NCBI RefSeq assembly: GCF_001758425.2
Contig: NZ_MDSS02000014.1
Location: 1 to 64,000 of the forward strand
Source: Nesterenkonia sp. PF2B19
GTDB taxonomy: Bacteria > Actinomycetota > Actinomycetes > Actinomycetales > Micrococcaceae
Direction of reading: 5' to 3'
Length of the DNA stretch: 64,000 bases
Shown: positions 1,741 to 18,345 of the stretch, in pieces
Layout: each line of letters opens with the position of its first letter
Numbering within the stretch: the stretch's first letter is position 1
Notes under the pieces: model-generated
Seen by the model: only the letters and a program-made list of their open reading frames with translations
Told to the model about the DNA's origin: nothing
The model's database searches: none
Translations under genes and position numbers: made by a program

Positions 1741-1761
1741 GCCGCCCCGAGGCCACGAGGG

Positions 1762-2739
1762 TCAGGCGCTGCGTGCCGCCTGCACCCGTCCCTCGCCGAG
1801 CTCCAGGAGCCGATCCACCTCGTCGGCGTTGACCCGGCGGTCCACGACGACGGCGAGCATCTCCACCGGGTACACCTCACCGGATGCCAGCTCCAGCGGG
1901 GCGTCCCAGGCCAGTGCTGGGCCCAGGCCGATGTAGTCGGAGGCCCGGACGAACCACGGGACCGGGTCCGCCGACTGCTGGGCCAGCACCAGGCTCGTCC
2001 AGTCCTCGCTGTGACGGACGGCCACTGAGACCCACCTCGCCGGCGCACCGTGGATGTCCTGGGCGCCGGCGGAGTTCAGGACCTCCACCTCGTCCCCGGA
2101 GGCCAGCCGCCAGAAGAATCCACCGTAGCCCGCCCCCGGACGGCCCCGCACCGCCGGGCTGGAGATGGTCAGAGCGTGCTCGGCCCGCAGCGCGGAGGAC
2201 CAGCGCAGCGCCCAGGCCTCCGTCTCCTCCAGTCCGGCGCCGGTGACCTCGCGCTGCTCGTGCAGCTGCGGTCGCTGGTCCTGGTCGATCCAGCGGATCT
2301 CCTGACGCAGCGTGGCCCCGCGGTGCAGCATCTGGGCGTGGTCCACATGCTGGTGCCCGTGGTTGGGCAGCAGCATCGGGCCGTGCTCCGGGTCGAAGGT
2401 GCGGCCTCCCCAGTAGGTGGTGCCGTCCACATCCGGGATGGTCAGCGAGACGCCGTAGTGGTGGCGGTGGTCGTCCGGGCTGCGGTCCGTAAGCAGGCGC
2501 CCGCGCAGGCTCCGCACCGGGTGCAGGTGGGGACGCGGGCTGTGGACCGTGGGCATCCGCTCGCCGCCCATGCTGTGGGCCAGGACCAGCTCCCCGAGCT
2601 CCAGCTGCCAGCTGGCACCGCGCGCGGACCAGCGGGGCCCGCCGTCGTCGTCAGCGTGCCGGTGGGCCCGGCCCGAGAGGTCCGTGGAGGGAGCGGTGAG
2701 CGCGCGCGGGGGCGGCACGGGACCGGTGCTGGTGCGCAC
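1762..2739 (-). CDS. DUF6807 (PmoA-like) domain, likely the C-terminal half of a LacI-DUF6807 fusion
   Basis: A 325-codon frame carries a complete DUF6807 domain: DVDGTTYWGGRTF, then a Gly-rich GYGGFFWRL segment, DIHG, and a late SDYIGLGPALAWDAP. The domain is found in actinobacterial and planctomycete sugar loci; its function is unproven despite the 'PmoA' label. The nominal start is a GTG whose first residues (VRTSTGPVPPP) are the typical C-terminus of a LacI repressor. No ribosome binding site precedes it, and the domain already begins before the first internal ATG. The simplest reading is that it continues the upstream LacI gene after one lost base. A second DUF6807 copy lies at 10204-10914. 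Confidence 0.75.
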   Translation of the reverse strand: MRTSTGPVPPPRALTAPSTDLSGRAHRHADDDGGPRWSARGASWQLELGELVLAHSMGGERMPTVHSPRPHLHPVRSLRGRLLTDRSPDDHRHHYGVSLTIPDVDGTTYWGGRTFDPEHGPMLLPNHGHQHVDHAQMLHRGATLRQEIRWIDQDQRPQLHEQREVTGAGLEETEAWALRWSSALRAEHALTISSPAVRGRPGAGYGGFFWRLASGDEVEVLNSAGAQDIHGAPARWVSVAVRHSEDWTSLVLAQQSADPVPWFVRASDYIGLGPALAWDAPLELASGEVYPVEMLAVVVDRRVNADEVDRLLELGEGRVQAARSA

Positions 2740-2741
2740 CG

Positions 2742-3725
2742 TCAGCTCCGGGACGAAGGTCTCGGGCGCCGGCCGGAGGCGGGCACGGGCCCGCCGGCGA
2801 CCACCTCGGCCAGCAGCTGCCAGGCCCGGCGGCCCAGCTCCGCGTGGGGGACGTTGACCGTGGTCAGCGCAGGGTTGGCGAAGCGAGCGAGCTCGATGTC
2901 GTCGAAGCCGGTGACCGAAAGGCCGTCGGGCACCCGCACCCCGGATTCGTTGAGCCGCGCCAGCAGCCCGAAGGCAGTCAGGTCATTGAACGCGACCACC
3001 GCTGTGGCCTCAGAGGCCAGCACCTGGTCGGCGGCCTCGAAGCCGGCGTCGATCGTCGACCCTCCGGCCAGGTGGTCCACCCGCAGCTCGGGGCGGCGGG
3101 CCACGGCATCCGCCAGCGCCTCCCGGCGAGGGATGTCGGAGATGCTGCCGGCCGGTCCGCGCAGATAGGCGAGATGCCGGTGGCCCAGCCCGGCCAGATG
3201 GTCCACCAGCCGGTGGATCCCCTGGGCGTGGTCGATGACCAGGCTGGGGATGTCCTCATGCGCGGTGGTGCGGTTGACCAGAACCACCGGGCGCAGCTGG
3301 GGGAGCAGCTCCTCCAGGGCCTCCTGCGGCATCCGCGGGTTCACCAGGATCACCGCATCGCAGCGGGCCCGGGCCTCCTGGGCGACGGCGGACTCGTCTG
3401 CGGTGCGGTCGGCCGTCTCAGCCACCAGCGTGCGGTAGTCCTCCGCCTCCGAGGCGTCCATGACGCCACGCAGCACCTGATGGAACATCGGATTGCGCAG
3501 ATCCGGCACGACGACTGCCACCGTGCTGGAGCGGCCCAGGGACAGGCTGCGGGCCAGGGTGCTGGGCCGGTAGTTCAGTTCCGCGGCGGCCTCCCGCACA
3601 CGGTCGGCGATGTCCGGGGCGACGGTGGACTGCCCGTTCATCACCCGGGAGACAGTGGCCCGGGAGACACCGGCGGCCGCGGCGACCTCGCCGATCTTGG
3701 GGCCGTCCTTCAGCACCCGTCCCAT
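2742..3725 (-). CDS. LacI-family transcriptional regulator (N-terminal part of a probable LacI-DUF6807 fusion)
   Basis: The protein has an N-terminal helix-turn-helix (IGEVAAAAGVSRATVSRVMN, about residues 8-27), the hinge YRPSTLARSLS, and a periplasmic-binding-like effector domain with the late VTGFDDIELA motif. The ATG at 3725 is preceded by AGGAGAG and overlaps the TGA of the GH43 gene, so it is coupled to GH43 in one operon. The printed frame stops at 2742 after non-homologous residues. The true C-terminus (ETFVPELTVRTSTG) is in the next frame, consistent with CCCC read as CCC near 2765. It is a candidate repressor of the GH43/SBP1 operon or of other units in the window. Confidence 0.85.
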   Translation of the reverse strand: MGRVLKDGPKIGEVAAAAGVSRATVSRVMNGQSTVAPDIADRVREAAAELNYRPSTLARSLSLGRSSTVAVVVPDLRNPMFHQVLRGVMDASEAEDYRTLVAETADRTADESAVAQEARARCDAVILVNPRMPQEALEELLPQLRPVVLVNRTTAHEDIPSLVIDHAQGIHRLVDHLAGLGHRHLAYLRGPAGSISDIPRREALADAVARRPELRVDHLAGGSTIDAGFEAADQVLASEATAVVAFNDLTAFGLLARLNESGVRVPDGLSVTGFDDIELARFANPALTTVNVPHAELGRRAWQLLAEVVAGGPVPASGRRPRPSSRS

Positions 3726-5395
3726 CACACTCTCCTGCCGTCCATGCAGACCGTCACGGCCGAGAATACCCCGTGGCCCACGGTGCCCGTCGCGGAGCGG
3801 GCACCGCCGGTCAGCGGAGCAGGGCGCCGGGCGAAGAGTCCCACCTCCGCCCCGATCCATCGGCCCTGCGTGGCCGTGAAGCCCGGGTCCACCTGGCGCC
3901 AGGGGTCCTGAGGGTGATGGCGCCAGAAGAAGGTGATCCGGGCGTCGTCGTCATGCGTCAGGGCCAGCTCGGCGGCATCGGAGGCGCGCAGCTCGGCGAC
4001 GGTCGCCTCCGCTGGGCCCGCTGCGGAGGCGTCTGGCGAGGCGTCTGCCGATACGGCGGCGTCAACTGCCGCGCCGCCGGTGCGGCAGACCAGCCAGGTG
4101 CCGTCCTCGCGATGCTCCAGGCCGAGCCAGGTATAGGTGTCTCCCAGCACCGCCAGGCCCGCCTGGGCGCCGGGGCTGGGATCCTCCAGGTGGAGGCGGG
4201 TGGTCCACCGGCCCGCCCGGCCGGGCAGCTGCTGCCCCAGCACGGCGCCGTGGCGACGGAGGTCGTCCCCGGCTGCGGGCAGGGCGCGCAGCCTCGCGGT
4301 GCCGTCTCCGGGCAGGTGCAGCCAGTCTGGCTCGGGGTTGGCCTGCCAGTGCCAGCGTGGTGCCAGCACGGCGCTGCGGAACTCGTCGCTGCGGGACGGT
4401 TCGCGCTGCGCGAGGGAGCCAGGGTGCGGCACCGGGTGGGGGACCGGATGCTCGAGGACCGGACGTCCGCTGACCTCGTCCACGGGCTCTCCCAGCCGGG
4501 GCCAGCCGTCGTCGTCCCACCGCATCGGCTGCAGGTGGACCACCCGGCCGAACGGGCCGCGGTCCTGGAAGTGGAGGAACCAGTCCTCCCCGGCCGGCGT
4601 GGTGACCCAGGCGCCCTGGTGCGGGCCGTTGACGTCGGTGTCGTGCTGCTCCAGGACGACGCGGTGCTCATAGGGCCCGGCGATGTCCCGGGAGCGGAAC
4701 ACATACTGCCACCCGGTGGCGACCCCTCCGGCCGGAGCGAAGATCCAGTGCCAGCCGTCGCGGCGGTAGATCTTCGGGCCCTCCAGGGTGGTGCAGCCGG
4801 GGATGGCGTCGCCGTCGATGATGACCCGGGATTCGCTCAGCGGCCGACGCAGCTGCGGGTCCACCTCCACCAGGCTGATGCGGTTCTTCACCCCGGCGCG
4901 GCTGCGCGCCCAGCCGAAGACCACATAAGCCCTCCCGTCTTCGGCCCACACGGGGCACGGGTCGATGAGTCCGCGGCCCGGCAGCAGCAGATGCGGCGTG
5001 CTCCACGGGCCGCGCGGGTCCTCCGCGGAGGTGACGAAGAGACCATGGTCGGGGTCGGGGTGGACGATGTGGAAGACGCCGTCGTGATGCCGCAGGCTCG
5101 GCGCCCAGACTCCTCCGCCGCGCCGCGGCACGGCGAAATGCTCCGACGGCGGCACCGCGGGCAGCGCATTGGTGACGTGCTCCCACCTCACGAGGTCCCG
5201 GGAGTGCAGCACCGGCAGGCCCGGCGCCCGGTTGAAGCTGGAGGCGATCATCCAATAGTCCTCGCCCACCCGGACGGCGTCCGGATCCGGCCAGTCGGCG
5301 TTGAGGATCGGATTGCGATAGGTCTCATGAGTCGCGGCGGGCGTCGGGGGCTGGGCTGTCTCGACGAGCTGGGCTGTCAGGCGGGGGTGGTCCAT
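3725..5395 (-). CDS. GH43-family glycosidase (beta-xylosidase/alpha-L-arabinofuranosidase type)
   Basis: The 556-residue protein starts with the five-bladed propeller typical of GH43: NPILNADWPDPDAVR carries the base aspartate, LIDPCPVW the pKa-modulating aspartate, and LEGPKIY the acid glutamate. A C-terminal beta-sandwich follows from about residue 340. There is no signal peptide, so it probably trims arabino- or xylo-oligosaccharides inside the cell. A strong Shine-Dalgarno (GGAGGAG) precedes the ATG. It lies downstream of SBP1 and is coupled to the LacI gene, suggesting the receptor, enzyme and regulator handle one substrate. Arabinan or xylan side chains are likely, but the exact linkage is not readable. 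Confidence 0.88.
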   Translation of the reverse strand: MDHPRLTAQLVETAQPPTPAATHETYRNPILNADWPDPDAVRVGEDYWMIASSFNRAPGLPVLHSRDLVRWEHVTNALPAVPPSEHFAVPRRGGGVWAPSLRHHDGVFHIVHPDPDHGLFVTSAEDPRGPWSTPHLLLPGRGLIDPCPVWAEDGRAYVVFGWARSRAGVKNRISLVEVDPQLRRPLSESRVIIDGDAIPGCTTLEGPKIYRRDGWHWIFAPAGGVATGWQYVFRSRDIAGPYEHRVVLEQHDTDVNGPHQGAWVTTPAGEDWFLHFQDRGPFGRVVHLQPMRWDDDGWPRLGEPVDEVSGRPVLEHPVPHPVPHPGSLAQREPSRSDEFRSAVLAPRWHWQANPEPDWLHLPGDGTARLRALPAAGDDLRRHGAVLGQQLPGRAGRWTTRLHLEDPSPGAQAGLAVLGDTYTWLGLEHREDGTWLVCRTGGAAVDAAVSADASPDASAAGPAEATVAELRASDAAELALTHDDDARITFFWRHHPQDPWRQVDPGFTATQGRWIGAEVGLFARRPAPLTGGARSATGTVGHGVFSAVTVCMDGRRV

Positions 5396-5562: not shown

Positions 5563-6884
5563 TCACTGCAGGGCCGTCTGCATCTCGGCCATCATCTCCG
5601 CGGCGGCCTGCTCCGGGGTGAGACGCTCGAAGTACACCTCGGACTCATAGCGGAAGAGGGTCTCACGCATCGTGGAGAAGCCGATGGCCGGCACCGGCTC
5701 CGGCTCGCCGAGCTCCGGTTCGATCTCCTGGACGAACTCCGCAGAGTGTGCGTCGGCGGCGTCGAGCTCGGGCAGCACGGCAGCGCGGACGTCTTCGTCT
5801 GCGGGCAGACCGCGGTCGGTCAGCGAGATCAGGCCGGCCTCCTCGGAGCTGATGACGTGCTCGATGAACGCCCGGACCTCCTCGGGGTGCTCGGTGTCGG
5901 CCGAGGCGGAGAGCAGCATGGCGGACTTGAACCACATGCCGCTGTCCTCGGCCTGTCCGGTCTGCGAGGGGAAGCGCAGCAGCTGCATCTCGGCGCCGCT
6001 CGCATTGGCCAGCGTGGGCAGCTCGTTGGTCCACCAGCCGCTCAGGGCGACCTGTCCCAGCCCGGCCAGGGACTGTTCCGGGCCCAGCTCCATGTCCTCG
6101 GCCAGCGCGTCGGCCGGCGGCATGCCGCCGTCGTCCATGAGGTCCAGGACGTACTGGAAGTAGTCGGCGGCGTGCTGCTCGTCGAAGCCGAGCTCGCCGT
6201 CCTCGGTGGTCAGGTGGGCGTCGTGCTGGCGCAGCCACACCTGGAAGGCGCCGGGCTGGTTCAGCGAGACCGCGCCCCAGGCGTCGTCGAGGTGGTCGCT
6301 GAGCTCCACCGTGAGGTGGTGGTAGTCGTCCCAGGTCCAGGTGGTGTCGTCCGGCATGTCCACACCGGCCGCCTCGAAGAGGTCCGGGTTGGCCACCAGG
6401 GCGAAGGAGTTGATGCCGATCGTCACGCCGTAGAGACCGTCACCGGTGCGCCCGTTGTCCACGATGTCCGGGTCCAGGCCGTCGACGTCCACGGCGGAGA
6501 GCTCCAGCAGGGCGCCGCGGTCGGCATACTCCCGCAGGTACTTGTCGTCCATCTGGACGACGTCGGGCATGTCCCCGGCGGCGGTCCGGGTGGCCATCTG
6601 ATCCCAGTAGCCGGAGTCCCCGTAGGCCGTCTCCACGGTGATCCCCGGGTGCGTGGCCTCGAAGGATTCGATGATCTCCTCGGTGAGCTGGAGTCGGTAG
6701 TCGGATCCCCAGAAAGCGAACTCCAGGGTCACGTCCCCGGAGTCCGCCTGCGCGTTCCCGCCGTCGCTGCAGGCGGTGAGCCCGACGACGGCCGCCAGGG
6801 CGAGGCCCGTGGGACGAAGCCGCGGGGGTGACGGGGTCCGCGGGGAGCACGTGCTCCAGGGCGAGAGCTGGGGGTGAACGTCAT
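5563..6884 (-). CDS. Sugar ABC transporter solute-binding lipoprotein (SBP1)
   Basis: Extracellular solute-binding protein of the CUT1 sugar type. The mature part opens with LEFAFWGSDYR and carries DMPDVVQMDDKYLREYADRG and DDTTWTWDD, shared with six other receptors in this window. The lipobox VGLTAC (cysteine codon near 6770) is in the main frame, but no start codon is in that frame upstream. The ATG at 6884, preceded by GGAG, opens a basic n-region in the neighbouring frame, so one base seems to be missing within the signal peptide. It is first in an operon with GH43 and LacI-DUF6807. No permease gene is near. Its ligand is probably the GH43 substrate. Confidence 0.85.
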
Positions 6885-6970: not shown

Positions 6971-7043
6971 GGGTCAGGGGAGGCTGTGACGGTGCCGGTG
7001 CGGCATCGTGGGATGCCGCGCGTGCGGCCGGGCGAGACGCGCC

Positions 7044-7055
7044 TACGATGGGGGG
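7044..7055 (+). promoter_or_regulatory. -10 box of a leaderless LacI gene
   Basis: TACGAT is followed by six G bases and then the ATG at 7056. This is the actinobacterial leaderless arrangement; no independent Shine-Dalgarno is needed. Confidence 0.5.
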
Positions 7056-8053
7056 ATGCCAGAGTCCAAGGCCACCATCGTCGCGATCGCGCATCAGCTC
7101 GGCCTGTCCAAGACCACAGTGTCGGATGCGTTGAACGGCACCGGACGGGTCTCGCCGGCCACGGTGGCTCGGGTACGGGACGCCGCTGAGGAGGCCGGAT
7201 ACGTGGTCAACCGGGCCGCGCGTGCGCTGCGGCAGAAGCGAGCGGGGGCCGTGGGCATCCACCTGCCCGCCGGCTCGCGAGAGCTCGACTTCTACATGCA
7301 GTTCACCTTCGGCGTCAGCGACGTCGTCGGCGAGGCTGACCTCGATCTCAGTCTGCTGCACCGTGGCCGCGGCGAGGAGCGTGGCTTCCACCTCGACGGA
7401 GCGCTCGTGCTCGACCCGACGCCCGAGGATCCGGTGCTCGCCGCTCTGCTGAGGGCCCGGGTCCCGGTGGTCACGGTCGGCCGTCACCGCGGAGCCGGCG
7501 CGGAGCAGGTGGCCGGCATGATCCGGGCGCGTCATGAGGAGCTGCAGCGCGAGGCGCTGGCCACGCTGCCTCCGCGCGGCCGACGCCGCCCGGTGTTCCT
7601 CGGGATCGACGAGGGGCTCCCCGCCTCCTGGGCGCTCGAGGCCCGCGCGGCCTATGAGGCCTGGTGTCAGGAGCATGACGTCGAGCCGTGGGTGGTGGAG
7701 GTCTCTCCGGAGCTGCGCATCCCGGAGCTGTCCGACCTGGTCGGCTCCGTGGTGAGCGACGGCGCTGATGCGATCGTCTGCTGCGCCCAGGGGTACGCGG
7801 CCCAGTCTCAGAGCATCCTGCAGGGCCTCGGGCTCGAGCCGGCCGGGACGTGGATCTGATCTCCTTCGCCGGTGACGAGCTCCACGAAGTGCGTGAACCA
7901 CGGATCACCGCTGTCGCGCTGGAGCCGCGGGCCTACGGGACCGCTTCCGCGGACCTGCTGCTGGAGGTCATGGCGCGGCCGCAGGAGAGCGCGCGGATCC
8001 GGGATTTCGACGGCGCCCATGTCGCGCCGGCCGAAAGGCCTCCGGGAGAGTGA
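7056..8053 (+). CDS. LacI-family transcriptional regulator, one frameshift
   Basis: An N-terminal helix-turn-helix (IVAIAHQLGLSKTTVSDALN) is followed by the RAARALRQKRAG hinge and an effector-binding domain shorter than usual. The first frame stops at 7859; the natural C-terminus (VDLISFAGDELHE to the TGA at 8053) continues in the next frame. Reading GGGG instead of GGG near 7847 restores one protein of about 332 residues. It is divergent from SBP1 across the interval with the perfect palindrome, so it is the most likely regulator of that operon and of itself. Confidence 0.82.
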
Positions 8054-8071: not shown

Positions 8072-8965
8072 ATGGGTATGACACAGACGAGGGGTCCCCA
8101 CGGATCTGACGTTGGGCGCTCCTCGAGCGGCCTGGCGGCGGTGCTGGTGGCCGCGGTCCCTCTGATTCTGACCGGCTGCGTCACGTTGTCGGAGCCGGGA
8201 GAGCACGACCCTGATGCCGATCCCGACGCGATCGCACCGGCCGAGCAGGACCCTGCTGACGACGGTCGCGCTCCGGGCGACGACGGCCTGACGGTGGAGG
8301 CCCTGCTGGACGTCGAGACGTTGGAGACGCTGGTCCCCTCGGGCCGGGACGTCCCGGACGGCTACACCCTGGAGGAGCCGAACGCCTCCGAGGACGACCC
8401 CGACTGGACCTGGGAGGACTGGCGCAGTCAGATCGCCGGGGAGGACGTCCTCGATGACTGGGAGGCCTCCATTCCGGACGACGCCGACCCCGTGCAGGAG
8501 GCGCTGTGCACCGCCTCCATGGCCGAGCACCGCCAGGCGATCCTCGACACGATCGACGCCCTCGAAGCCTCCGACGCCGCGGATGCCACCGGGAACTCCT
8601 GGGTCTGGGAGACCTACCGGGGCGAGGACGGGGAGGTCATCGAGGTCACGCTGGAGGGGTATCCGGCCGTCGTCGGCGGTGACCTCGACGAGGCCTGGCA
8701 TCAGCGCTCCGTGGACTGCTGGCCCGTGATCAACCACGCCCAGGAGGATCCTTACGCTCGACACCTGGAGCTGGACGGGCTCCTCGGCGTCGCGATGGGG
8801 TCCACGGACGAAGGCACCGAGATCAATGTGACCGCGGACCACGGCCAGCTGTGGGTGAACTACACGGCGCTCTCAGAGCGGCCCGGCGACGTCGATGCTC
8901 TCCTGACGACCGTGCAGGAGATCCACTCACACATCCTGGATCGCCTCGGCGCGCACGCCGACTGA
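8072..8965 (+). CDS. Acidic lipoprotein of unknown function
   Basis: The 297-residue protein has an N-terminal signal sequence and a lipobox ending LTGC (cysteine about residue 36), then an Asp/Glu/Pro-rich linker (to about residue 75). The following domain is acidic, with several tryptophans and two cysteines (EALC, DCW) that could form a disulfide. It should be anchored to the outer face of the membrane. No family was recognised. It sits between the LacI gene and the convergent M24-like gene with no clear link to sugar uptake. Confidence 0.7.
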   Translation: MGMTQTRGPHGSDVGRSSSGLAAVLVAAVPLILTGCVTLSEPGEHDPDADPDAIAPAEQDPADDGRAPGDDGLTVEALLDVETLETLVPSGRDVPDGYTLEEPNASEDDPDWTWEDWRSQIAGEDVLDDWEASIPDDADPVQEALCTASMAEHRQAILDTIDALEASDAADATGNSWVWETYRGEDGEVIEVTLEGYPAVVGGDLDEAWHQRSVDCWPVINHAQEDPYARHLELDGLLGVAMGSTDEGTEINVTADHGQLWVNYTALSERPGDVDALLTTVQEIHSHILDRLGAHAD

Positions 8966-8969
8966 GGCG

Positions 8970-10111
8970 TCATCGCCGCAGCACGGCCGGCCGTGCCAGC
9001 CCGGCGACCTCCACCGTCGGCCAGCGCTCGTCCACGCTGAGCACATCGATCCAGAGCCCGCTGTCGTGTCCCGCGGCCCCGCCGCCGGCGGCGCGCAGCA
9101 CCACGGTGTCCTCCACCTTCGCGCCCAGGCCGAGCTCCGCGCTCCAACCGGTGGGGTTCCACGCGAACGGCTGGTTCTCCCGGATCAGGTCCGGCACTCC
9201 GGGCGCCACGCGAGGATCCCGGCCCTGGTACCCGGCGGCCCCGCCCTGATGATGCTTCGTCCACTCGTCGGCGGGGAACCCATGCCGCACATAGGACTCC
9301 TGCAGCGTCTCCAGCACCGACTCCAGACGGGCTCCGGGGCGCAGCGCGGCGAACACGTCGGCCTCCACGCCGAGGATCCGTGCATCCAGGTCGTCCTCCC
9401 CGGTGACGGCGCCCCCGAAGCCCACCCAGCGGGTCACGTCGGCGATCAGCCCCTGACGGCGCGCGCACACCACCGCCATGGCGCGGCGGCCCAGCGGCGC
9501 ATCGGTGGGCAGCGGGTGGCGGTGGGCCGCTCGGGACTCACCGTTGACCAGCAGCACCACCGGGTCGGCGCCGGCGGCGATGATCCGCGGCGCCAGGGCG
9601 GCGGCCAGCTGCCGCTCGGTGGTCTCCGGGGTGACCTCGGAGAGCACGTCGGTCAGTGCCTTCGCGGAGGACCGGCACAGCGCCCGGTAGCGCTCCACCT
9701 CGACGTCCAGCAGCGAGGCTCTCACCGCTCGGAGCTGCTGGGCCGCCCCCGCCTCCCGGACCAGCGTCCAGCCGGCGGCCTGCGGCAGTCGCCGACGACG
9801 TCGTCCACATCGGCGTGCCACGGCAGCTCGTGCAGGCTCACGGTGCCGGCGTCGAGCAGCGCGGCCAGCGGCGCCAGCTCCTCGTCACGGATGCGGGCGA
9901 GCTCATTGGTGAACACCCCCACCGAGACGCCGTCGCGGTGCACCACGGCCCGCAGGATCGGGGCGCCGGCGAGGCTGATGTGCACCCGCGCCCCGGCCAG
10001 CAGCCAGGAGATCGCTCCTTCGGTGTCCAGCACGACGGCGTCGGCGCCCACCTCCTCCAGCACTCCGGTCAGCCGTGTGTGCTTGGCGTGGAACTCCTGC
10101 TCGGGGGTCAT
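8970..10111 (-). CDS. M24-like (creatinase/Xaa-Pro peptidase fold) protein, one frameshift
   Basis: The N-terminal creatinase-like domain is read from 10111 (ADAVVLDTEGAISWLLAGAR). The C-terminal pita-bread-like domain (HHQGGAAGYQGR, then NPTGWSAELG and KVEDTVVLR) is read from the next frame. The junction near 9790 (GAC CTG read as GACTG) fits one lost base, giving about 380 residues. The usual M24 metal ligands (Asp-Asp-His-Glu-Glu with HGxGH) are not obvious, so peptidase activity is doubtful. It closes the minus-strand operon of Gfo/Idh, DUF993, isomerase and Gfo-DUF6807, and may act on a sugar-derived substrate. Confidence 0.7.
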
Positions 10112-10203
10112 ACTCCTCCTCGTGGTGGGGTGATCGGCGTTGCCTCCGCGGTGTGGGCCCTGATGAGCGACGATCAGCGCTCACACGGGCCCGCTGCGCG
10201 GAC

Positions 10204-12308
10204 TCATCGTGAGACGCGGGTCGCGGTCAGCTCTGCCGACAGTCTGCTCCCCAGTGCGGCGGCTTCCGCACGGTCCAGCAGACCGTCGACGACGACGGCC
10301 CGCACTCGGCGTGCCACCGGCTCGCCCGGGCGAGCCATCACGGGGGCGTCCCAGGCCAGCGACCTGCCGATTCCGGGATAGCCGGAGTATCGCACGAACC
10401 AGGGGTCCTCGTCGGCGGAGGCCAGCACCAGTGTGGCCTCCCCGGCCCCCAGATGGGGGGCGATCTGCGCGGTGTCGAAGCGCCCGCTGATCGCCAGCCA
10501 GTCGCTGACGCTGCCGTGGACATCCTCCTCCCCGGAGGCCTGCGCGGTGAAGATCTCGGCCTCCCGCAGGGCGGGAAGCCGCCAGAAGAAGCCGCCGTAG
10601 CCGCCGCCTGCGCGCCCGTTGGAACCGGGGCTGCCCAGCGAGACCTCCCGGTCCACGGCCGGTGCGAGAGCGAAGCGGAAGTCCAACATCCATGACCGTT
10701 CGTCGCGGCCGGTCACCGTGACCTCGCGGTCCTCCTGCAGCAGTGTGGCACCGGTGCGGTCGATCCATGCCAGCTGCTGGGCCAGCCGCTGGCTGTGCGC
10801 GTCGTCGTCGAGCTGCTGCGCACGGATGACGATCCGGCCGTGGTCGTCGCGCCAGATGTACCGGCCGTCCTCCCGGGTGTAGGTGCGCCCGCCCCAGAAA
10901 TTGGTGCCGTCCACATCCTGCAGTGCGACGCCGACGCCAGGTGCCAGGTGTGGTCCAGCGGCTGCTGATCGGAGACCAGCACTCCGCCGCGCGTGCGCAC
11001 CCGGTCCAGGAAGGGCCGTGGGGAGTCGGTGGGGGAGATGTCGTCGCCGGTGCGCAGCTCTGCCACGGTCTGCGCCTCACCCGCGTCGGCGCCGGGAAGC
11101 GCCAGGGAACCGCTCGTGGCGGCGGGGGCCGCCCAGGGTGCCCCCAGCGAGGAGAACGTGGAGGGGGCCTTCACCGCGCGGGCGGCATAGTCCTCGATAT
11201 GCGGGATCACCGGGTGCCGCTCGGGGCCGGAATCCACCTGCTCCACATGCTCCTCGCCGATCTGTGCCGGATCCTCCGCGGTGCGGACCGCCTCCAGCAC
11301 GCGCATGAACGCCCCGGACTCGCGCAGCGGGGAGAGCAGCCTCTCGGCCTCCCCGGTGCGCACGTCGATCAGGTTCTCCAGCAGGTTGCTGCGCTCGAAC
11401 TCCAGCGTCCGCGGCTTGCCGGCCTCCCCGGCGTTGAACGGCGCCTCCCGGTTGGGTGTGATCTCCAGCCGGTCTTCGGTGTAGTAAAGCACCGCGTGGC
11501 CTTCTGTGCCGTAGATCGTCACCCACGGCGGCCGGTGGTCCTCCGGCGCGCAGAGCGTCAGCGCCGCGGTCACGGGGATTCCCTCGGTGGTGCGCAGCGA
11601 GACGGTGGACGTGTCGTCGGCCTCGATCTGGTGGGCGTGCAGCAGCTCGGTGCCCAACTGGGCGACGTCGTCGGCGTCCCGGGCGCCGGCGATGTGCAGG
11701 GCGGTGCGCACTGCGTGGGCCAACGGGTTGGTGATCACTCCGTCGACCACCTGGACGCCGTCGAGTACCCGTCGGCCCGCCCAGGGAGCGCGGGCGTAGT
11801 AGGCCTCCCGGCGCAGCCACAGCCCGGTGGCTCCGACCGCGCGCAGCTGTCCGATGGCACCCGGGGCGTGGGGGGCGGCCAGCAGCTCCTCCAGCGCGGG
11901 CAGGGCATGGGACCCCAGCGACTGGAAGCCCACCTGGATGCGCCGGCCGAGCCGATCGGCGGCGTCCAGCAGCTCCTCATACTGGGCGAAGGTCGCCGTC
12001 GGCGGCTTCTCCAGCAGCACGTCGGCGCCCATCTCGAGCGCCTCCAGTGCGAGGTCCCGGTGCGTGTTGATCGGCGTGGAGACGATGACGACGTCGGGGC
12101 GGTGCCCGGCCTCGCGCGCCTCGGTGAGCGTGCGGTGCACCGGGATGTCCCCGCGGACCTCTGGGCCGGGGTCGCTGTAGCTGGCGCCGGCGATCAGCCG
12201 AGCCTTGCCCGATGCGGCCAGGCGCTGCAGGTTCAGCAGATGCTGGCGGCCGAAGCCGTCCAGGCCGACCAGCAGCACCGACGTCGGGGCGGATCCTTCA
12301 GCGGTCAT
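10204..12308 (-). CDS. Gfo/Idh/MocA oxidoreductase fused to a DUF6807 domain, one frameshift
   Basis: The protein starts at 12308 with a Rossmann motif (VLLVGLDGFGRQH), then DVLLEKPP with the conserved EKP lysine at about residue 100, and a Gfo/Idh C-terminal sheet domain to about residue 395. After a linker the frame enters the DUF6807 N-terminal region (RTRGGVLVSD). It then shifts by one base near 10934 into GVALQDVDGTNFWGGRTY and the rest of DUF6807 up to 10204. The junction (CTGGGC read as CTGGC) restores a single protein of about 700 residues. Because DUF6807 has begun before the shift, the fusion is real unless both halves are mis-assembled. It is probably a sugar dehydrogenase linked to a domain acting on its product. 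Confidence 0.8.
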
Positions 12309-12331
12309 GGCTCTCCTCGGAGTGACTGGCG

Positions 12332-12415
12332 CATCGAGTGGCCACGAATCCCGGCATCTGCTTCCCCGACACGGCGTGTCAGCCGGGAGATCCCGTGGTT
12401 CGTGGCCACTCGATG
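12332..12415. repeat. Triple-nested inverted repeat, structured intergenic element
   Basis: A perfect 17-bp outer stem (CATCGAGTGGCCACGAA, 12332-12348 with 12399-12415) encloses a 7-bp stem (TCCCGGC with GCCGGGA). That encloses a 5-bp stem around GGC (GACAC-GGC-GTGTC, 12368-12380). The element fills the gap between the isomerase stop and the Gfo-DUF6807 start inside one operon. It could be a terminator, processing site or palindromic repeat. No U-tract is present. Confidence 0.7.
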
Positions 12416-12426
12416 GGTGGGGATGG

Positions 12427-13332
12427 TCAGACGGCGGCGGACGGGGTGTGGGCGGACGCGGCCGTCAGGAACGGCTCCACCAGGTCGGCGTAGCGCGTCT
12501 TCATCGTCTCCAGCGTCACGGCGGCGTCCTGGGCGTTGATCTCCTCGTTGAAGATCTCCACCTCGACCGGTCCCGTGTAGCCGGCCTCGGCCACCCACCG
12601 GGAGATCGTGGGGAAGTCCACATGGCCGTCGCCCATCATCCCGCGGGACTTCAGGGCGTCGGCGGCGATCGGCAGGTTGAAGTCGCACACCTGGTAGCTG
12701 GCGAGACGACCCTCGCGGCCGGCGCGGGCGATCTGCTCCTGCAGCTGGGGGTCCCACCACACATGGAAGGTGTCGACGACGACGCCGACCGTCTCCGCCG
12801 GATGCGGGGCCGCCAGGTCCAGGGCCTCTCCCAGCGTGGAGAGCACCGCACGGTCCGCCGCATACATCGGGTGCAGCGGCTCCAGCACCAGCCGCACGCC
12901 GTGCTCGGCGGCGTAGGGCAGCAGCTCGGCGATGCCGTCGGCCACGCGGGCGCGGGCGTCCACGATCGACTTGTCCGCCCGGTCGCCCTCCCCGCCCAGC
13001 AGGTGCGCGGCGGAGGGGAGCCCGCCGACCACCATGATCAGCTCACCGGTGCCGATGGCGGCCGCCTCACGGATCGCCGCCCGGTTGGACTCCAGCGCGG
13101 CGGCCCGCCCTGCGGCGTCGGCCGGGGTGAGGAATCCGCCGCGGCACAGCGTGGTGGCGCTCAGTCCGGCGCCGGAGATGATCTGCGCGGCCTTCTCCGC
13201 CCCGCCTGCCTGCTCCAGCAGGTGACGCCAGGGGCCGATGTGGGAGAGCCCGGCGGCGGCGACGGCGTCGACGGCCTCCTGCAGGGACAGCTGTGGGGTG
13301 GTGCCCGTGTTCAGCGACAGCTCGAAGCTCAT
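12427..13332 (-). CDS. Sugar phosphate isomerase/epimerase family (TIM-barrel, AP-endonuclease-2 fold)
   Basis: The 301-residue TIM barrel carries the metal-site pattern of this superfamily: LVLEPLHP (Glu), GVVVDTFHVWW (Asp, His), a YQVCDFN segment and a final VEVEIFNEE (Glu). Members isomerise keto-sugars, and some act as lyases on 3-keto glycosides. The ATG overlaps the DUF993 stop codon (ATGA), so translation is coupled. With the flanking Gfo/Idh enzymes it suggests oxidation of a sugar followed by rearrangement or elimination. The substrate is unknown. Confidence 0.85.
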   Translation of the reverse strand: MSFELSLNTGTTPQLSLQEAVDAVAAAGLSHIGPWRHLLEQAGGAEKAAQIISGAGLSATTLCRGGFLTPADAAGRAAALESNRAAIREAAAIGTGELIMVVGGLPSAAHLLGGEGDRADKSIVDARARVADGIAELLPYAAEHGVRLVLEPLHPMYAADRAVLSTLGEALDLAAPHPAETVGVVVDTFHVWWDPQLQEQIARAGREGRLASYQVCDFNLPIAADALKSRGMMGDGHVDFPTISRWVAEAGYTGPVEVEIFNEEINAQDAAVTLETMKTRYADLVEPFLTAASAHTPSAAV

Positions 13333-14614
13333 GCGAGGCCTCCGGTCTTCAGCAGGCTGGCCATGCGTTCGGCGGCCAGCTGCGGGTCGGGGAGCAGCCC
13401 GGCCTGGTCGGCCAGGACGAAGGTGTGCGCCAGGTGCGGCAGCGAGCGTCCCGCGTGCAGTCCGCCGACCAGCTGGAAGCCGGACTGGTGTCCGTTGAGC
13501 CAGGACAGGAAGGCGATGCCCGTCTTGTAGTAGAACGTCGGGGCGCTGAAGATGTGCTTCCCCAGCTCCCGGGTGGAGTCGAGGATGGCGCGCCCGCGGG
13601 CCGCATCGCCGGCGTCGTAGGCCTGCAGAGCCGTGGACGCCGCCGGGTAGATGGCGGCGAAGATGCCCAGCAGCGCATCCGAGTACGCCGTGTCGTCGCC
13701 GTCGATGAGCTCCGGGTAGTTGAAGTCGTCGCCGGTGTAGAGCCGCACGCCCTCCGGCAGAGCGGCGCGCAGGCGCTTCTCGTGCTCGGCGTCCAGCAGG
13801 GAGACCTTCACGCCGTCGACCTTCTCCGGGTTCTGCCGGATCAGGGTCAGGAAGGTCTCGGTGGCCTCGGCGACGTCGTCGGATCCCCAGTAGCCGGCCA
13901 GCGCCGGGTCGAACATGGGGCCGAGCCAGTGCAGCACCACCGGCTCCTGGGCGGTGGTCAGCAGGCGGGTGTAGACGTCCAGGTAGTCCTGGGCCCCGGA
14001 GGCGACCTTGGCCAGGGCGCGGGAGGCCATGAGGATCACCTTCGCCCCAGAGGTCTCCACGACCTCCAGCTGCTCCAGGTAGGCGGCGAGCACGGTCTGG
14101 ATCCCGGCCTCGCCCGGCTCCACGGAGGCCGGGTCCACCTGGTCGGTGCCGGCGCCGCAGGCGACGAGGTCGCGCACGGTGCGGCCGGCCAGTGCCGGGT
14201 AGGTGCCGGCCTCGACGACCGCCGCGGCCTCCGCCGCCGAACGACGGATGAGCTCCTTCGTGGCCTCATAGTCCAGGCCCATGCCGCGCTGGGCGGTGTC
14301 CATGCGTCGGCGACGCCGAGCCCGTAGGACCACAGCTCGTGCCGGTAGGCCAGCGTGGCCTCCCAGTCCAGCTGGGCCGGCGCGCCGGGGACGTTGTCCG
14401 CGGACATCACCGGCACCACATGGGCGGCGGCGTAGACCTTCCGGGAGGTCAGGGGCTTCTCCGGGCGGGTGAACGGCCCCAGGGAGGGGTCGGCCTGGCC
14501 GGTCATGGTGTACTCCACGGTGCCGCCGTCGAGCGACGGCAGCGTCAGCGTGGGCAGGGGCGTGGTCTGCTGTGCGGGGGCGCTGGCAGTGCTGGTGGTG
14601 CTGGTGGTGCTCAC
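13329..14614 (-). CDS. DUF993 family protein (dihydrodipicolinate synthase-like barrel), one frameshift
   Basis: The first part (to LGVADA) starts at 14614. The second part, from MDTAQRGMGLDYEATKELI on, is one frame away; restoring one base in GACGCATGG near 14303 joins them into about 428 residues. The sequence matches DUF993, a TIM-barrel family related to class I aldolases. VKVSLLDAEHE, with a lysine, may hold the Schiff-base residue, although this is inference. It sits between Gfo/Idh and the isomerase with a coupled downstream start. A retro-aldol or hydrolytic step on an oxidised sugar is possible. The C-terminus, YYKTGIAFLSWLNGHQ, is typical of the family. Confidence 0.8.
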
Positions 14615-15777
14615 AGGGTGATCTCCGGGATGTCGAGGGTGCGGCGCTCGGCGTGGGACTTCAGGCCGAGCTCGGCGAGCTGGACGCCGCGGGCGGCGGA
14701 GAGCAGGCCGAACCGGTGGTCACGGCCGGCGACGACGTCGGCGAGGAACTCCTCCCACTGCAGCTTGAAGCCGTTGTCCAGCTCGGCGTTGGCGGGGACC
14801 TCCATCCACTGGTCGCGGAAGGACTCGGTGACCGGGAGGTCCGGGTTCCACACCGGCTTCGGCGTGTGGGCGCGCTGCTGGGCCACACACTTGTTCAGGC
14901 CGGCGACGGCGGAGCCGTGGGTGCCGTCGATCTGGAACTCCACGAGTTCGTCGCGGTAGACGCGCACCGCCCAGGAGGAGTTGATCTGGCCGACCACCTG
15001 GTCGCCCTGCGGGGTCTCCAGGTCGAAGATGCCGTAGGCGGCGTCGTCGGCGTCGGCGTCGTAGGGCTCGCAGTTCTCGTCCCAGCGCGTGGGGATGTGG
15101 GTGGCGGTCCTGGACGTGACGGACTTGACCGTGCCGATGATGCCTTCGAGCACGTAGTTCCAGTGGCAGTACATGTCGGTGGTCATGGAGCCGCCGTCGG
15201 CCAGACGGTAGTTCCAGGAGGGGCGCTGGGCGGGCTGGACCTCGCCCTCGAAGACCCAGTACCCGAACTCGCCGCGCAGGGAGAGGATGCGGCCGAAGAA
15301 GCCCTCGTCCACCAGGCGGCGCAGCTTCACCAGGCCGGGCAGGTAGAGCTTGTCGTGGACGACGCCGGCGGTGATGCCGGCGGTCTTGGCCTGGCGCGCC
15401 AGGTCCACGGCCTCCTCGAGGGTCTCGGCGGTGGGCTTCTCGGTGAAGATGTGCTTGCCGGCGGCGATCGCCTTGGACAGCGTGGCGGGGCGCAGGGAGG
15501 TCATGGAGGCGTCGAAGACGATGTCCACTGACGGGTCGTTGATGGCCCCGTCGAGGTCGGTGGTCCAGTGCTCGACGTCGTGCCTGGCGGCGAGCTCCTT
15601 GATCTTGGACTCGTTGCGACCGACGAGGATCGGCTCGACGGTGACCTTGGAGCCGTCGGCGAGCGTGATGCCGCCCTGGTCGCGGATGGGGAGGATGGAG
15701 CGCAGCAGGTGCTGGCGGTAGCCCATCCGGCCGGTGATGCCGTTCATGGCGATGCGGAGGACGCGGGGCTCAGTCAT
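14611..15777 (-). CDS. Gfo/Idh/MocA family sugar oxidoreductase
   Basis: The 388-residue protein has an N-terminal Rossmann fold (LRIAMNGITGRMGYRQH), the EKP motif in HIFTEKPTAET, and the family's C-terminal alpha/beta domain with GSMTTDMYCHWNYVLE. The ATG at 15777 has an AAGGAGC Shine-Dalgarno; a longer frame upstream lacks one. It is the first gene of a five-gene operon ending at 8970. Its promoter carries both a LacI-type operator and a CRP-like site, so it should respond to an inducer sugar and to carbon status. Its likely job is NAD(P)-dependent oxidation of a sugar or glycoside. Confidence 0.88.
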   Translation of the reverse strand: MTEPRVLRIAMNGITGRMGYRQHLLRSILPIRDQGGITLADGSKVTVEPILVGRNESKIKELAARHDVEHWTTDLDGAINDPSVDIVFDASMTSLRPATLSKAIAAGKHIFTEKPTAETLEEAVDLARQAKTAGITAGVVHDKLYLPGLVKLRRLVDEGFFGRILSLRGEFGYWVFEGEVQPAQRPSWNYRLADGGSMTTDMYCHWNYVLEGIIGTVKSVTSRTATHIPTRWDENCEPYDADADDAAYGIFDLETPQGDQVVGQINSSWAVRVYRDELVEFQIDGTHGSAVAGLNKCVAQQRAHTPKPVWNPDLPVTESFRDQWMEVPANAELDNGFKLQWEEFLADVVAGRDHRFGLLSAARGVQLAELGLKSHAERRTLDIPEITL

Positions 15778-15820
15778 GGAATCGGGGCTCCTTGCAGGGG
15801 GTCTGGCGGGGCGATGATGT

Positions 15821-15836
15821 TGGAATGCGCTTTCCA
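15821..15836. promoter_or_regulatory. LacI-type operator, Gfo operon / divergent LacI
   Basis: TGGAATGCGCTTTCCA is a near-palindrome with TGGAA/TTCCA arms and a central CG. It lies just downstream of the -10 of the minus-strand operon, where bound repressor would block initiation. The divergent LacI gene at 15888 is the natural candidate regulator. Confidence 0.75.
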
Positions 15837-15873
15837 CGGTAGTATCGCTCCAAAGAGTGTGTCAACTGTCACA
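15836..15873 (-). promoter_or_regulatory. Promoter of the Gfo-DUF993 operon with overlapping CRP/GlxR-like site
   Basis: On the minus strand TTGACA (15865-15860) and TACCGT (15841-15836) are 18 bases apart. A CRP-like site, TGTGT-N6-TCACA, covers 15858-15873 and overlaps the -35. Confidence 0.6.
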
Positions 15874-15887
15874 GGCAGGAGCTTCAG

Positions 15888-16916
15888 ATGGCTGTCCGTC
15901 TGGCCGACGTGGCCAAGGCCGCCGGGGTGTCCCAGTCCACGGCCTCCCGAGTGCTCAACGGATCCACCCGTCGGCCCAAGCCCGAGATCGCCGACCGCGT
16001 GCGCGCGGCCGCCGAGGAGCTGGGCTATTTCCCCAATGCGCAGGCGCAAGCGCTTGCCCGATCCTCGGCCGGCCTGATGGGCCTGATCGTCCATGACATC
16101 GCCGATCCGTACTTCTCTTCGATCGCCCGCGGGGCGCAGCGCGGCCTGGCCGGGACCGGCGTCCAGCTCATGCTGGCCTCCACGGAACGCGAGGCCGCGG
16201 CGGAGGTAGAGGCGGTGCGCGCCTTCATGTCATACCGGACCGATGCGATACTCCTGGCCGGCTCCCGCGGCATGGAGGACGACGCCCTGCTGCAGAAGGT
16301 GCTGGAGACCTATCAGGACAACGGCGGGAAGGTCTCCATGATCGGTCAGCCCTTCCCGACCGCCGGCGGTGTGCAGATCGACAACGAGGCCGGGGCTGCC
16401 GCGCTGGCCTCCGAGCTGCTCAAGCTTGGGCACCGGCGCTTCGCCGTGCTCAGCGGAGAGCAGGAGCTGTCCACCTCGGCGCAGCGCTCCGACGGGTTCA
16501 TCGCCAAGCTCAAGGCGGCCGGCGTCGTTCCGGAGGTGGTCAAGGAGGGCACCTTCACCCGCGACGGCGGCTACTTCATGATGGGCGAGCTCATCAGCTC
16601 CGGTGCGGTCTCCGCGGCGGAGGGGTCTGAGGGGGGCGGGCCGCTGTGCGTGTTCTGCGTCAACGACGTCATGGCGCTGGGTGCCCTGGCGGCGATCCGC
16701 GAGGCGGGACTGCGCGTTCCCGAGGATGTCGCGCTCGCCGGCTTCGACGACATTCCGACGCTGGCCGACCAGTTCCCCTCGATCACCACCGTCCGGCTGC
16801 CCCTGGAAGAGATCGGCCGGATGACGGCGTCGATGACGCTGGCACCCGGGGATGCCGAACGCCGCATGGTGGTGGAGGGCGCCCCCGTGCTCCGGGAGAG
16901 CACCCGGCTGCCCTGA
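15888..16916 (+). CDS. LacI-family transcriptional regulator
   Basis: The intact 342-residue regulator has a helix-turn-helix (LADVAKAAGVSQSTASRVLN), the hinge NAQAQALARS, and a ligand-binding domain with AGFDDIPTLADQFPSITTV near the C-terminus. The ATG follows CAGGAG. It is divergent from the Gfo/DUF993 operon, sharing a 110-base interval with a well-formed LacI operator, and so probably represses that operon and itself until its sugar effector appears. Confidence 0.9.
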   Translation: MAVRLADVAKAAGVSQSTASRVLNGSTRRPKPEIADRVRAAAEELGYFPNAQAQALARSSAGLMGLIVHDIADPYFSSIARGAQRGLAGTGVQLMLASTEREAAAEVEAVRAFMSYRTDAILLAGSRGMEDDALLQKVLETYQDNGGKVSMIGQPFPTAGGVQIDNEAGAAALASELLKLGHRRFAVLSGEQELSTSAQRSDGFIAKLKAAGVVPEVVKEGTFTRDGGYFMMGELISSGAVSAAEGSEGGGPLCVFCVNDVMALGALAAIREAGLRVPEDVALAGFDDIPTLADQFPSITTVRLPLEEIGRMTASMTLAPGDAERRMVVEGAPVLRESTRLP

Positions 16917-17046: not shown

Positions 17047-18345
17047 ATGGACCATCGCCGTTCCACGCCCGTGCCGCGCCGCCGCCGTCGCGCCACGGTT
17101 CTGACCGCCGGCCTCGCCGCCGCCACGCTGGTGCTCGCCGGCTGCGGAGGACAAGAGGGCGACGACGGCGACGTCACCCTCCGCTTCGTCTGGTGGGGCT
17201 CGGACGCCCGTCACCAGAACACCCAGGAGATCATCGATGCCTTCGAAGCGGAGCACCCGCACATCAGCATCAATGGAGACTTCGGCGACTGGGACGGCTA
17301 CTGGGACCAGCTCGCCACGCAGACCGCCGCCGCCGACGCCCCGGACATCATCCAGATGGACGAGCTGTACCTGCGCGAGTACGCGGACCGCGGCTCGCTG
17401 CTGGACCTGGACGAGGTGGACACCTCGCAGATGGACGAGACCGTGGTGGACAACGGCCGCACCGAGGGCGGCCTGTACGGAGTGACCATCGGCATCAACG
17501 CCTTCACCGTCCTGGCCAATCCGGACCTCTTCGAGGAGGCCGGGGTGGACATGCCGGACGACACCACCTGGACTTGGGGCGACTACCGGGACATCGCCGT
17601 CGAGCTCAGCGAGGGCCTCGACGGCGCCTGGGGTGCTGGCGGCTTCGACGAGACCGGCGGATTCCAGACCTGGGTCCGCCAGCAGGGCGGACATCTCAGC
17701 GATGAGGACGGGCAGCTCGGCTTCACCGCGGAGGATGCCGAGAGCTACTTCGAGTACCTCGTCGAGCTGCTGGAGGCCGGAGCCACGCCGTCGGCCTCCG
17801 CGCTCGCGGAGGACCAGGGAGTGGGGCCGGATCAGTCGCTGACCACCGCCGGCCAGGTGGCGATGCGCGCCTGGTGGTCCAACCAGTCGGTGGCGCTCTC
17901 CGAATCGGCGGGCACCCAGCTGGAGCTGCTGCGGTTCCCCAGCCACACCGGCAGTGCCGAGGATGCCATGCCCTGGTACAAGTCCTCGATGTTCCTCTCC
18001 GGCAGCGCGACCACCGATCACCCGGAGGAGGTCCAGCAGTTCATCGACTTCTTCGTCAACTCGGAGGAGGCCGCGCTGATCGACATGGCCGAGCGTGGCA
18101 TCCCGCCGAACAACGAGATCCGCCAGGTGGTCACCGAGGAGCTGGACGGCGCCCAGCTGGTCATGGCCGAATACATCGACGAGATCGAGGGCGAGCTCGG
18201 TCCTTCCGAGCCTGTGCCGGCCATGGGCGGGTCCGCGTTCCAGCAGATCCTCTACCGGTACCAGGACGAGGTGCTCTTCGACCGCATGTCTCCGGCCGAC
18301 GCCGCCGAGGCGATGGTCTCCGAGATGGAGTCCGAGATCCGGTAG
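17047..18345 (+). CDS. Sugar ABC transporter solute-binding lipoprotein (SBP2)
   Basis: The 432-residue receptor has an Arg-rich signal peptide and a lipobox LVLAGC (cysteine about residue 35). The mature part holds LRFVWWGSDARHQNTQEII, YWDQLATQ, IIQMDELYLREYADRG and DDTTWTW. The intact gene is followed by the secreted PL9-like lyase, so it probably captures oligogalacturonides or rhamnogalacturonan fragments released by that enzyme. No permease genes adjoin it. CRP-like control is suggested by the promoter. Confidence 0.9.
   Translation: MDHRRSTPVPRRRRRATVLTAGLAAATLVLAGCGGQEGDDGDVTLRFVWWGSDARHQNTQEIIDAFEAEHPHISINGDFGDWDGYWDQLATQTAAADAPDIIQMDELYLREYADRGSLLDLDEVDTSQMDETVVDNGRTEGGLYGVTIGINAFTVLANPDLFEEAGVDMPDDTTWTWGDYRDIAVELSEGLDGAWGAGGFDETGGFQTWVRQQGGHLSDEDGQLGFTAEDAESYFEYLVELLEAGATPSASALAEDQGVGPDQSLTTAGQVAMRAWWSNQSVALSESAGTQLELLRFPSHTGSAEDAMPWYKSSMFLSGSATTDHPEEVQQFIDFFVNSEEAALIDMAERGIPPNNEIRQVVTEELDGAQLVMAEYIDEIEGELGPSEPVPAMGGSAFQQILYRYQDEVLFDRMSPADAAEAMVSEMESEIR

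Follow-up and report, generated by a model that had tools for sequence, protein, structure and literature searches.

The 64,000-nucleotide stretch of the Nesterenkonia sp. PF2B19 genome analysed here (contig NZ_MDSS02000014.1, positions 1 to 64,000; called the window below) harbors on its minus strand, between positions 8970 and 15777, five gene products in the order GfoA, DUF993, ISO, GfoB-DUF6807 and M24-like, of which the first three form a unit conserved in many soil bacteria. These three are a Gfo/Idh/MocA oxidoreductase (GfoA), a DUF993 protein predicted to have the fold of dihydrodipicolinate synthase (DHDPS) and a xylose-isomerase-like TIM barrel (ISO). We tentatively propose that they make up the core of a LacI-controlled oxidative keto-sugar route, in which carbon-carbon bond cleavage through a Schiff base would give a three-carbon product that leads to glycerate. 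An earlier note, made from the sequence alone, had presented the five genes as a candidate undescribed pathway, with one orientation and at least two stop-start overlaps. The observation is real and better supported than that note could know: all five products are found in the order given, and direct reading of the sequence gives 4-nt overlaps between the GfoA stop and the DUF993 start (GTGA, 14614-14611) and between the DUF993 stop and the ISO start (ATGA, 13332-13329). The unit of conservation, however, is GfoA-DUF993-ISO and not the set of five.

Conservation and regulation of the three-gene core

GfoA (14611-15777, ATG at 15777), DUF993 (13329-14614, with a frame split near 14303) and the intact ISO gene (12427-13332) are found in this order on one strand in all 20 loci from relatives. 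A scan of named genomes yielded at least 586 stretches coding for a relative of DUF993; among the best 80, which were used for the named-locus counts, the three genes share one strand in 79, and locus L087 carries DUF993 without the other two. Loci L016, L036 and L044 come from one genome, so that counts over both locus sets contain a duplicate, and the gene order of L082 and L119 looks different only through the midpoint sorting of stop-to-stop frames. A LacI-family relative is present within the examined stretch in 17 of the 20 and 76 of the 80 loci. Gene-neighborhood conservation, which the earlier note had named as a check, was thus found for the core, whereas the five genes do not travel as one unit. 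GfoB-DUF6807 and the M24-like protein were seen behind ISO only in Nesterenkonia, two Arthrobacter strains and Paeniglutamicibacter, corresponding to eight of the 20 relatives' loci and four of the 80 named loci (Nesterenkonia halophila, which is also among the eight, Arthrobacter sp. MYb229 and MYb213, and Paeniglutamicibacter terrestris). Four Nesterenkonia have a glycerate kinase behind ISO in place of these two genes; their rows and the 11 with the add-on form one supported clade of 15 in a tree built from 75 DUF993 rows.

The core was seen in Actinomycetota and in one Chloroflexota genome (L090); of the ten annotated proteobacterial loci, three (L129, L132, L135) have the version with Gfo. 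The family profile PF06187 was detected in 22 of the 58 genomes of the relatives search (own genome included), and 15 of the 29 further members of the genus have it. The 14 control genomes gave no match, and an even sample of 296 Actinomycetota genomes gave 28 (own genome included; one borderline at 23.2 bits). In a plasmid collection 147 records match the DUF993 family, 88 of which are from Sinorhizobium or Rhizobium. Two clusters proposed by a simple gene caller were judged by their position to be antisense shadows and were set aside.

The five genes had earlier been placed behind one promoter with a LacI operator and a CRP-like site, and both sites are present. The LacI-type operator TGGAATGCGCTTTCCA at 15821-15836 is the sole match to its pattern in the window. 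Its core, GAA[ACT]GCGCTT[TGA]C or G[ACT]AAGCGC[AGT]TTC, lies upstream of GfoA in 89 of 97 loci, compared to 0.02 expected (mean of dinucleotide shuffles), a descriptive figure as the pattern was written after viewing the sites; the 97 are those of 100 loci in which the GfoA start could be placed. With a stricter pattern five of the 97 loci were found, and a near-palindrome search gave 41 as against 10 in shuffles. The core is missing in eight loci, the Chloroflexota locus among these. The divergently encoded LacI-family protein (15888-16916, plus strand; PF00356/PF13377) is likely the repressor of the operon. The CRP-like site TGTGACAGTTGACACA (15858-15873, minus strand) is a 16-mer that contains TTGACA and agrees with nine of the ten bases of what we take to be the consensus. 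It is real as a pattern, with such sites upstream of GfoA in 16 of the 97 loci (0.48 expected), 14 of them in Nesterenkonia.

A promoter common to all five genes found no support. A scan of 8900-16000 for the sigma-70 consensus gave zero matches, and ISO is split from GfoB by a gap of 118 nt that contains a strong hairpin (12332-12415) with 28-nt arms of 89% complementarity. The RNA of the gap folds with an energy of -57.8 kcal/mol (z -4.2), and the exact pattern of the hairpin occurs at a single place in the genome. When the loci of seven relatives were compared, L056 also showed a strong structure (-45.7, a value that stands without a shuffle control). The hairpin may end or process the transcript.

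Fold and conserved residues of the encoded proteins

Both pieces of the DUF993 protein match PF06187 (478.6 and 74.8 bits), and 4dnh is a sequence relative (319 bits). An AlphaFold2 model based on 37 rows, the first of which is the N. halophila protein (the L044 relative), reached a predicted local distance difference test score (pLDDT) of 93.8 and shows the TIM-barrel fold of the superfamily of DHDPS and N-acetylneuraminate lyase (NAL). The closest solved structure to this model is 4dnh (S. meliloti SMc04132; Z 56.4, root-mean-square deviation (rmsd) 1.5, 383 aligned), and DHDPS-type chains superimpose at Z ~29-30 (rmsd 2.3-2.5, 283-290 aligned). Residue K251, in the motif GVK.SLLD, is invariant in 115 of 115 alignment rows and lies within strand 247-253, which corresponds to strand 6, the position of the Schiff-base lysine. 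A profile alignment with 24 DHDPS-family rows (E 3.4e-5 in a single comparison, probability 72) places K251 opposite the DHDPS lysine, H210 opposite the tyrosine and TGDD opposite SGDD; this lysine and tyrosine are catalytic residues in DHDPS. The position of the GTTGE-type motif, which has a role in DHDPS, is taken by a different conserved stretch. In fold and invariant lysine, the earlier description of DUF993 as aldolase-like is borne out. Similar to the class I aldolases DHDPS and NAL, the protein has its lysine on the matching strand of a common fold; unlike these it has a histidine in place of the catalytic tyrosine, an N-terminal extension, a Pfam family of its own and an identity of only ~11-18% in structural alignments.

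GfoA (PF01408/PF22725/PF02894) has 3oqb as solved relative (449 bits), possesses the EKP motif (E133, K134, P135) in 105 of 105 rows and is presumably NAD(P)-dependent, as judged by its family. It scored below the cut-offs of the models for levoglucosan dehydrogenase (LgdA; 73.1 bits, cut-off 650), the inositol enzyme IolG (53.7 bits, cut-off 355) and disaccharide 3-dehydrogenase (28.2 bits, cut-off 650), and a match to a characterised pathway, which would have spoken against the earlier proposal, was not obtained with these models. ISO carries a PF01261 domain (118 bits) and is related to the solved structures 7vpf, 3ju2 and 3qc0 (~208-211 bits); its acidic and histidine residues E151, D187, H190, E257 and E259 are kept in 107 of 107 rows. 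The eight relatives of ISO that were listed at E 0.001 do not include AtOGE (8BVK). The close solved relatives of DUF993, ISO and GfoA, which are 4dnh (SMc04132), 3ju2 (SMc04130) and 3oqb, respectively, are labelled hypothetical, uncharacterized or oxidoreductase, with no function given in the entries or in the papers found.

The two add-on genes encode GfoB fused to DUF6807 (10204-12308, minus strand, frame split near 10938; PF01408/PF22725 and PF14100) and the M24-like protein (8970-10111, minus strand, frame split between 9722 and 9821). DUF6807 models as a galactose-mutarotase-like beta supersandwich: a model from six rows (pLDDT 78.2) has 8x1b as best structural match (Z 16.6, rmsd 3.2, 219 aligned), and GalM 4bze matches at Z 15.0 (rmsd 3.4, 216 aligned). 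Foldseek gave poor overlaps for the same model, with a TM score to the model of at most 0.46 in the 50 rows shown, and a sequence search of the PDB with DUF6807 revealed no convincing relative (best E 0.11). Of 114 loci, 17 encode a DUF6807 relative within the examined stretch, among them loci of Saccharopolyspora and Nocardiopsis. The M24 protein matches PF00557 (50 bits, cut-off 23) and was rightly called non-canonical, since at the five positions which we take to be the metal ligands two are lost here and three in most relatives. In 12 rows the first Asp is Cys and one Glu is Asn throughout, and the second Asp is Asn in ten, being kept in the window piece and in L035; the His and the last Glu appear to be kept in an alignment to 5giu and 5cdl. 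The GfoB-DUF6807 and M24-like proteins are an add-on of this clade that probably prepares or finishes a particular substrate.

Proposed route and alternatives

The genes that accompany the core in a minority of loci point, with moderate confidence, to a C3 acid, glycerate, as product. A PF02595 glycerate kinase is found near the core in nine of 114 loci: in five of these (L024, L025, L030, L032, L071) it lies downstream of ISO on the same strand at a gap of 0 to ~0.5 kb, and in L127 it directly follows DUF993. A MOFRL-type glycerate kinase, which is non-homologous to PF02595, occurs near DUF993 in six of 12 proteobacterial loci, two of which are near-copies (among the proteobacterial loci L124 and L136 are near-copies of each other). 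Two lineages thus use unrelated glycerate kinases, which is the chief ground for expecting glycerate as product. Annotated Gfo-DUF993-ISO sets are accompanied by glycerate kinase in Paracoccus yeei and Qingshengfaniella and stand without it in Chelatococcus, and an aldehyde dehydrogenase is encoded near the core in L127 and L132.

In the proposed route GfoA would oxidize a hydroxyl group with NAD(P) to give a keto sugar, as suggested by its family and the EKP motif. ISO, a TIM barrel of the metal-binding type, may isomerize, epimerize or dehydrate this keto sugar. DUF993 would form a Schiff base via its invariant lysine and then cleave a carbon-carbon bond, similar to the aldolases of the DHDPS/NAL superfamily, and the three-carbon product would be converted to glycerate and phosphorylated by glycerate kinase. 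Among the readings considered, Schiff-base cleavage of the keto sugar made by GfoA receives the heaviest weight. We regard as doubtful the more extended proposal that DUF993 represents a metal-free Schiff-base keto-sugar lyase/aldolase family in a widespread oxidative route ending in glycerate and that, in addition, the Nesterenkonia clade extends the route to a conjugated plant-derived substrate by means of a fused dehydrogenase-mutarotase-like protein and an M24-type hydrolase that works without metal.

Several observations weigh against cleavage to a glycerate precursor as the common function of the core. The DHDPS/NAL superfamily contains dehydratases as well and the catalytic tyrosine on strand 5 of DHDPS is not kept in DUF993, where H210 is found in 115 of 115 rows; carbon-carbon cleavage therefore does not follow from the fold. 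A shallower profile alignment of DUF993 with DHDPS, based on four sequences, found nothing. Of the 114 loci, 99 have neither type of glycerate kinase within the examined stretch, and the PF02595 kinase of L060, L062 and L064 lies on the opposite strand at a distance of 4.6-7.7 kb. Five annotated proteobacterial loci carry an SDR protein and CoA-pathway enzymes instead of Gfo, so the route may differ there. Finally, three of the five operon genes are frame-split in the present genome (see below).

The earlier note had pointed to Gfo and isomerase pairs that act on glycosides through 3-keto intermediates. This stands as one possibility, while the glycerate kinases and the aldehyde dehydrogenases of some loci fit carbon-carbon cleavage at least as well. 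Developed into a route of the Lgd or A. tumefaciens OGE type, it would have GfoA convert a glycoside or anhydrosugar to a 3-keto glycoside, DUF993 and ISO carry out elimination and hydration, and a Gfo enzyme reduce the 3-keto sugar, for which GfoB could serve in this clade; glycerate could then be a released aglycone, and a Schiff base at C3 would also favor elimination at C1. The parts are alike, with Gfo dehydrogenases and AP_endonuc_2 barrels in the available text on both systems (PMC7676230, PMC10628242). We nevertheless consider this alternative unlikely, because GfoA stays at 73.1 bits where the levoglucosan dehydrogenase model demands 650, 8BVK is missing among the eight listed ISO relatives, and the conserved core has one Gfo enzyme and one AP_endonuc_2 barrel. 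The Lgd pathway of Bacillus smithii and Paenarthrobacter resembles the present system, as far as the accessible text describes it, in its Gfo/Idh/MocA dehydrogenase, xylose-isomerase-like barrels, LacI regulator, uptake by a sugar ABC system and initial oxidation, and differs in having two Gfo enzymes and two barrels (LgdB1, LgdB2), with no DUF993 in that text. The operon described here encodes a single AP_endonuc_2 barrel, another one being located apart at 29748-30533, and membership in the levoglucosan pathway was rejected on the model cut-offs. Two Paenarthrobacter strains, P. nitroguajacolicus LG01 and one of P. histidinolovorans, have the core, and the word dihydrodipicolinate is absent from the main text of the paper on strains LG01 and LG02 (PMC10066097), as far as that text was available. 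In the portion of the A. tumefaciens OGE report at hand (PMC10628242), one operon likewise encodes a Gfo oxidoreductase and a pair of putative sugar phosphate isomerases; it differs in that no DHDPS-fold enzyme appears there and that OGE is not a listed relative of ISO.

An acid-sugar route similar to the non-phosphorylative Entner-Doudoroff pathway, in which an aldonate is dehydrated, DUF993 acts as keto-deoxy-acid aldolase or dehydratase and glyceraldehyde is converted to glycerate, would agree with the DUF993 fold, the glycerate kinases and the aldehyde dehydrogenases. It would also fit an enolase-superfamily protein, nearest to acid-sugar dehydratases, whose gene lies soon after that of ISO, in the same orientation, in four loci of Nocardiopsis. 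Relatives of this protein are present in six of 114 loci, however, the best NCBIfam score (207.9) is below the model cut-off of 500, and the stretch that DUF993 has at the GTTGE-type motif is a different one, which makes this route rather improbable. Least probable, and in our view very much so, is a cyclitol-type route analogous to inositol catabolism, with dehydrogenase, dehydratase barrel and ring opening: a Gfo enzyme and an AP_endonuc_2 barrel also begin inositol catabolism, but the IolG model is matched by GfoA at 53.7 bits against a cut-off of 355 (for other iol genes no dedicated search was made).

The GfoA-DUF993-ISO route, which the earlier note had already taken for undescribed, has probably not yet been worked out. 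No paper on DUF993 or PF06187 was found in the open-access literature, most subscription papers lying outside the search, nor did that literature yield functional papers on DUF993/DUF6807, on S. meliloti SMc04130-35, or through combinations of gene names and Pfam or PDB codes. A table of the PhaR regulon lists SMc04132 and SMc04133 (PMC12542648, in its accessible part). A DUF993 crystal structure has been available since 2012 (4dnh), with no function found as far as the searches reached; the conserved regulator site and the three-enzyme set now make the pathway directly testable. If the proposal is correct, DUF993 would bring Schiff-base chemistry into oxidative keto-sugar routes, of which the Lgd and OGE examples use Mn2+ according to the available text (PMC7676230, PMC10628242), and DUF6807 would gain a setting.

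Frame breaks and the wider gene neighborhood

The source assembly is a 3.7 Mb genome in 134 contigs, in which three genes of the operon are split: DUF993 runs from 14614 to ~14303 and then from ~14303 to 13329, GfoB-DUF6807 from 12308 to ~10938 and then from ~10938 to 10204, and the M24-like gene occupies the frames 10111-9722 and 9821-8970, with the changeover between 9821 and 9722. All 20 relatives' loci have DUF993 as a single open frame, and GfoB-DUF6807 and M24 are unsplit in all eight of these loci that have both behind ISO; one other genome (G065) has a broken DUF993, in three pieces. It is somewhat unlikely that the breaks are real mutations and the operon inactive in this particular genome. 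The DHDPS-family gene at 57563-58422 of the window and two of the three glycerate kinase loci of the genome (on C11 and C113) are frame-split too, unlike the six tRNA-synthetase genes matched, each a single open frame, which would fit real mutations. On the other side, each split gene reads through apart from its break, and a relative shares 87% identity with the DUF993 piece. Sequence or assembly error and recent decay fit alike. Two further catabolic-type genes, one for a LacI protein (7008-7859) and one for a solute-binding protein (5563-6732), also look shortened.

DUF993 has a second setting, with SDR, CoA-transferase and enoyl-CoA hydratase genes, in S. meliloti, P. kondratievae, Sagittula, Janthinobacterium and Caballeronia; acyl-CoA dehydrogenase is present in four of the five, Caballeronia being without it. 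In L124 (3130-13779, an S. meliloti plasmid), L133 and L134, DUF993 is accompanied by CoA-transferase, enoyl-CoA hydratase, acyl-CoA dehydrogenase and SDR, with Etf in L124 and L133; this apparently represents a separate, unassigned pathway. No annotated ISO stands beside DUF993 in Roseibium, Rhizobium SL42 and a Streptomyces plasmid; in L131 (8935-19113), a Streptomyces plasmid, DUF993 adjoins a polyketide synthase gene.

Two assignments of neighboring genes were dropped. An acid-sugar dehydratase common to Nocardiopsis and Chelatococcus was abandoned, the 'enolase' of L129 having no Pfam or NCBIfam match at E 0.001, and representatives of the Arthrobacter neighbors taken for rhamnose genes are xylose isomerase and xylulokinase according to NCBIfam. 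Relatives of the latter two occur near the core in L045, L046, L049-L052, L054, L057, L100 and L041. As nine of the 11 xylose isomerase loci belong to one Arthrobacter-type group, a distant Nesterenkonia locus being another, no link to xylose is claimed.

Next to the regulator gene lies a gene for a solute-binding protein (17047-18345, plus strand; PF01547). Several related loci, L026, L027, L029 and L035 among them, have a relative of this gene adjacent to their LacI gene; it is a possible partner in sugar uptake. Genes for plant-polysaccharide use are located in the window at 105-5395 (GH95, DUF6807, LacI, GH43), and 18628-38977 encodes a weakly matched beta-helix protein, several solute-binding proteins, GH106, DUF2264, galT and galK. 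This gene content fits a diet of pectin or rhamnogalacturonan, without naming the substrate of the cassette, and the GH95, GH43, GH106 and beta-helix genes make pectin a reasonable guess for the inducer.

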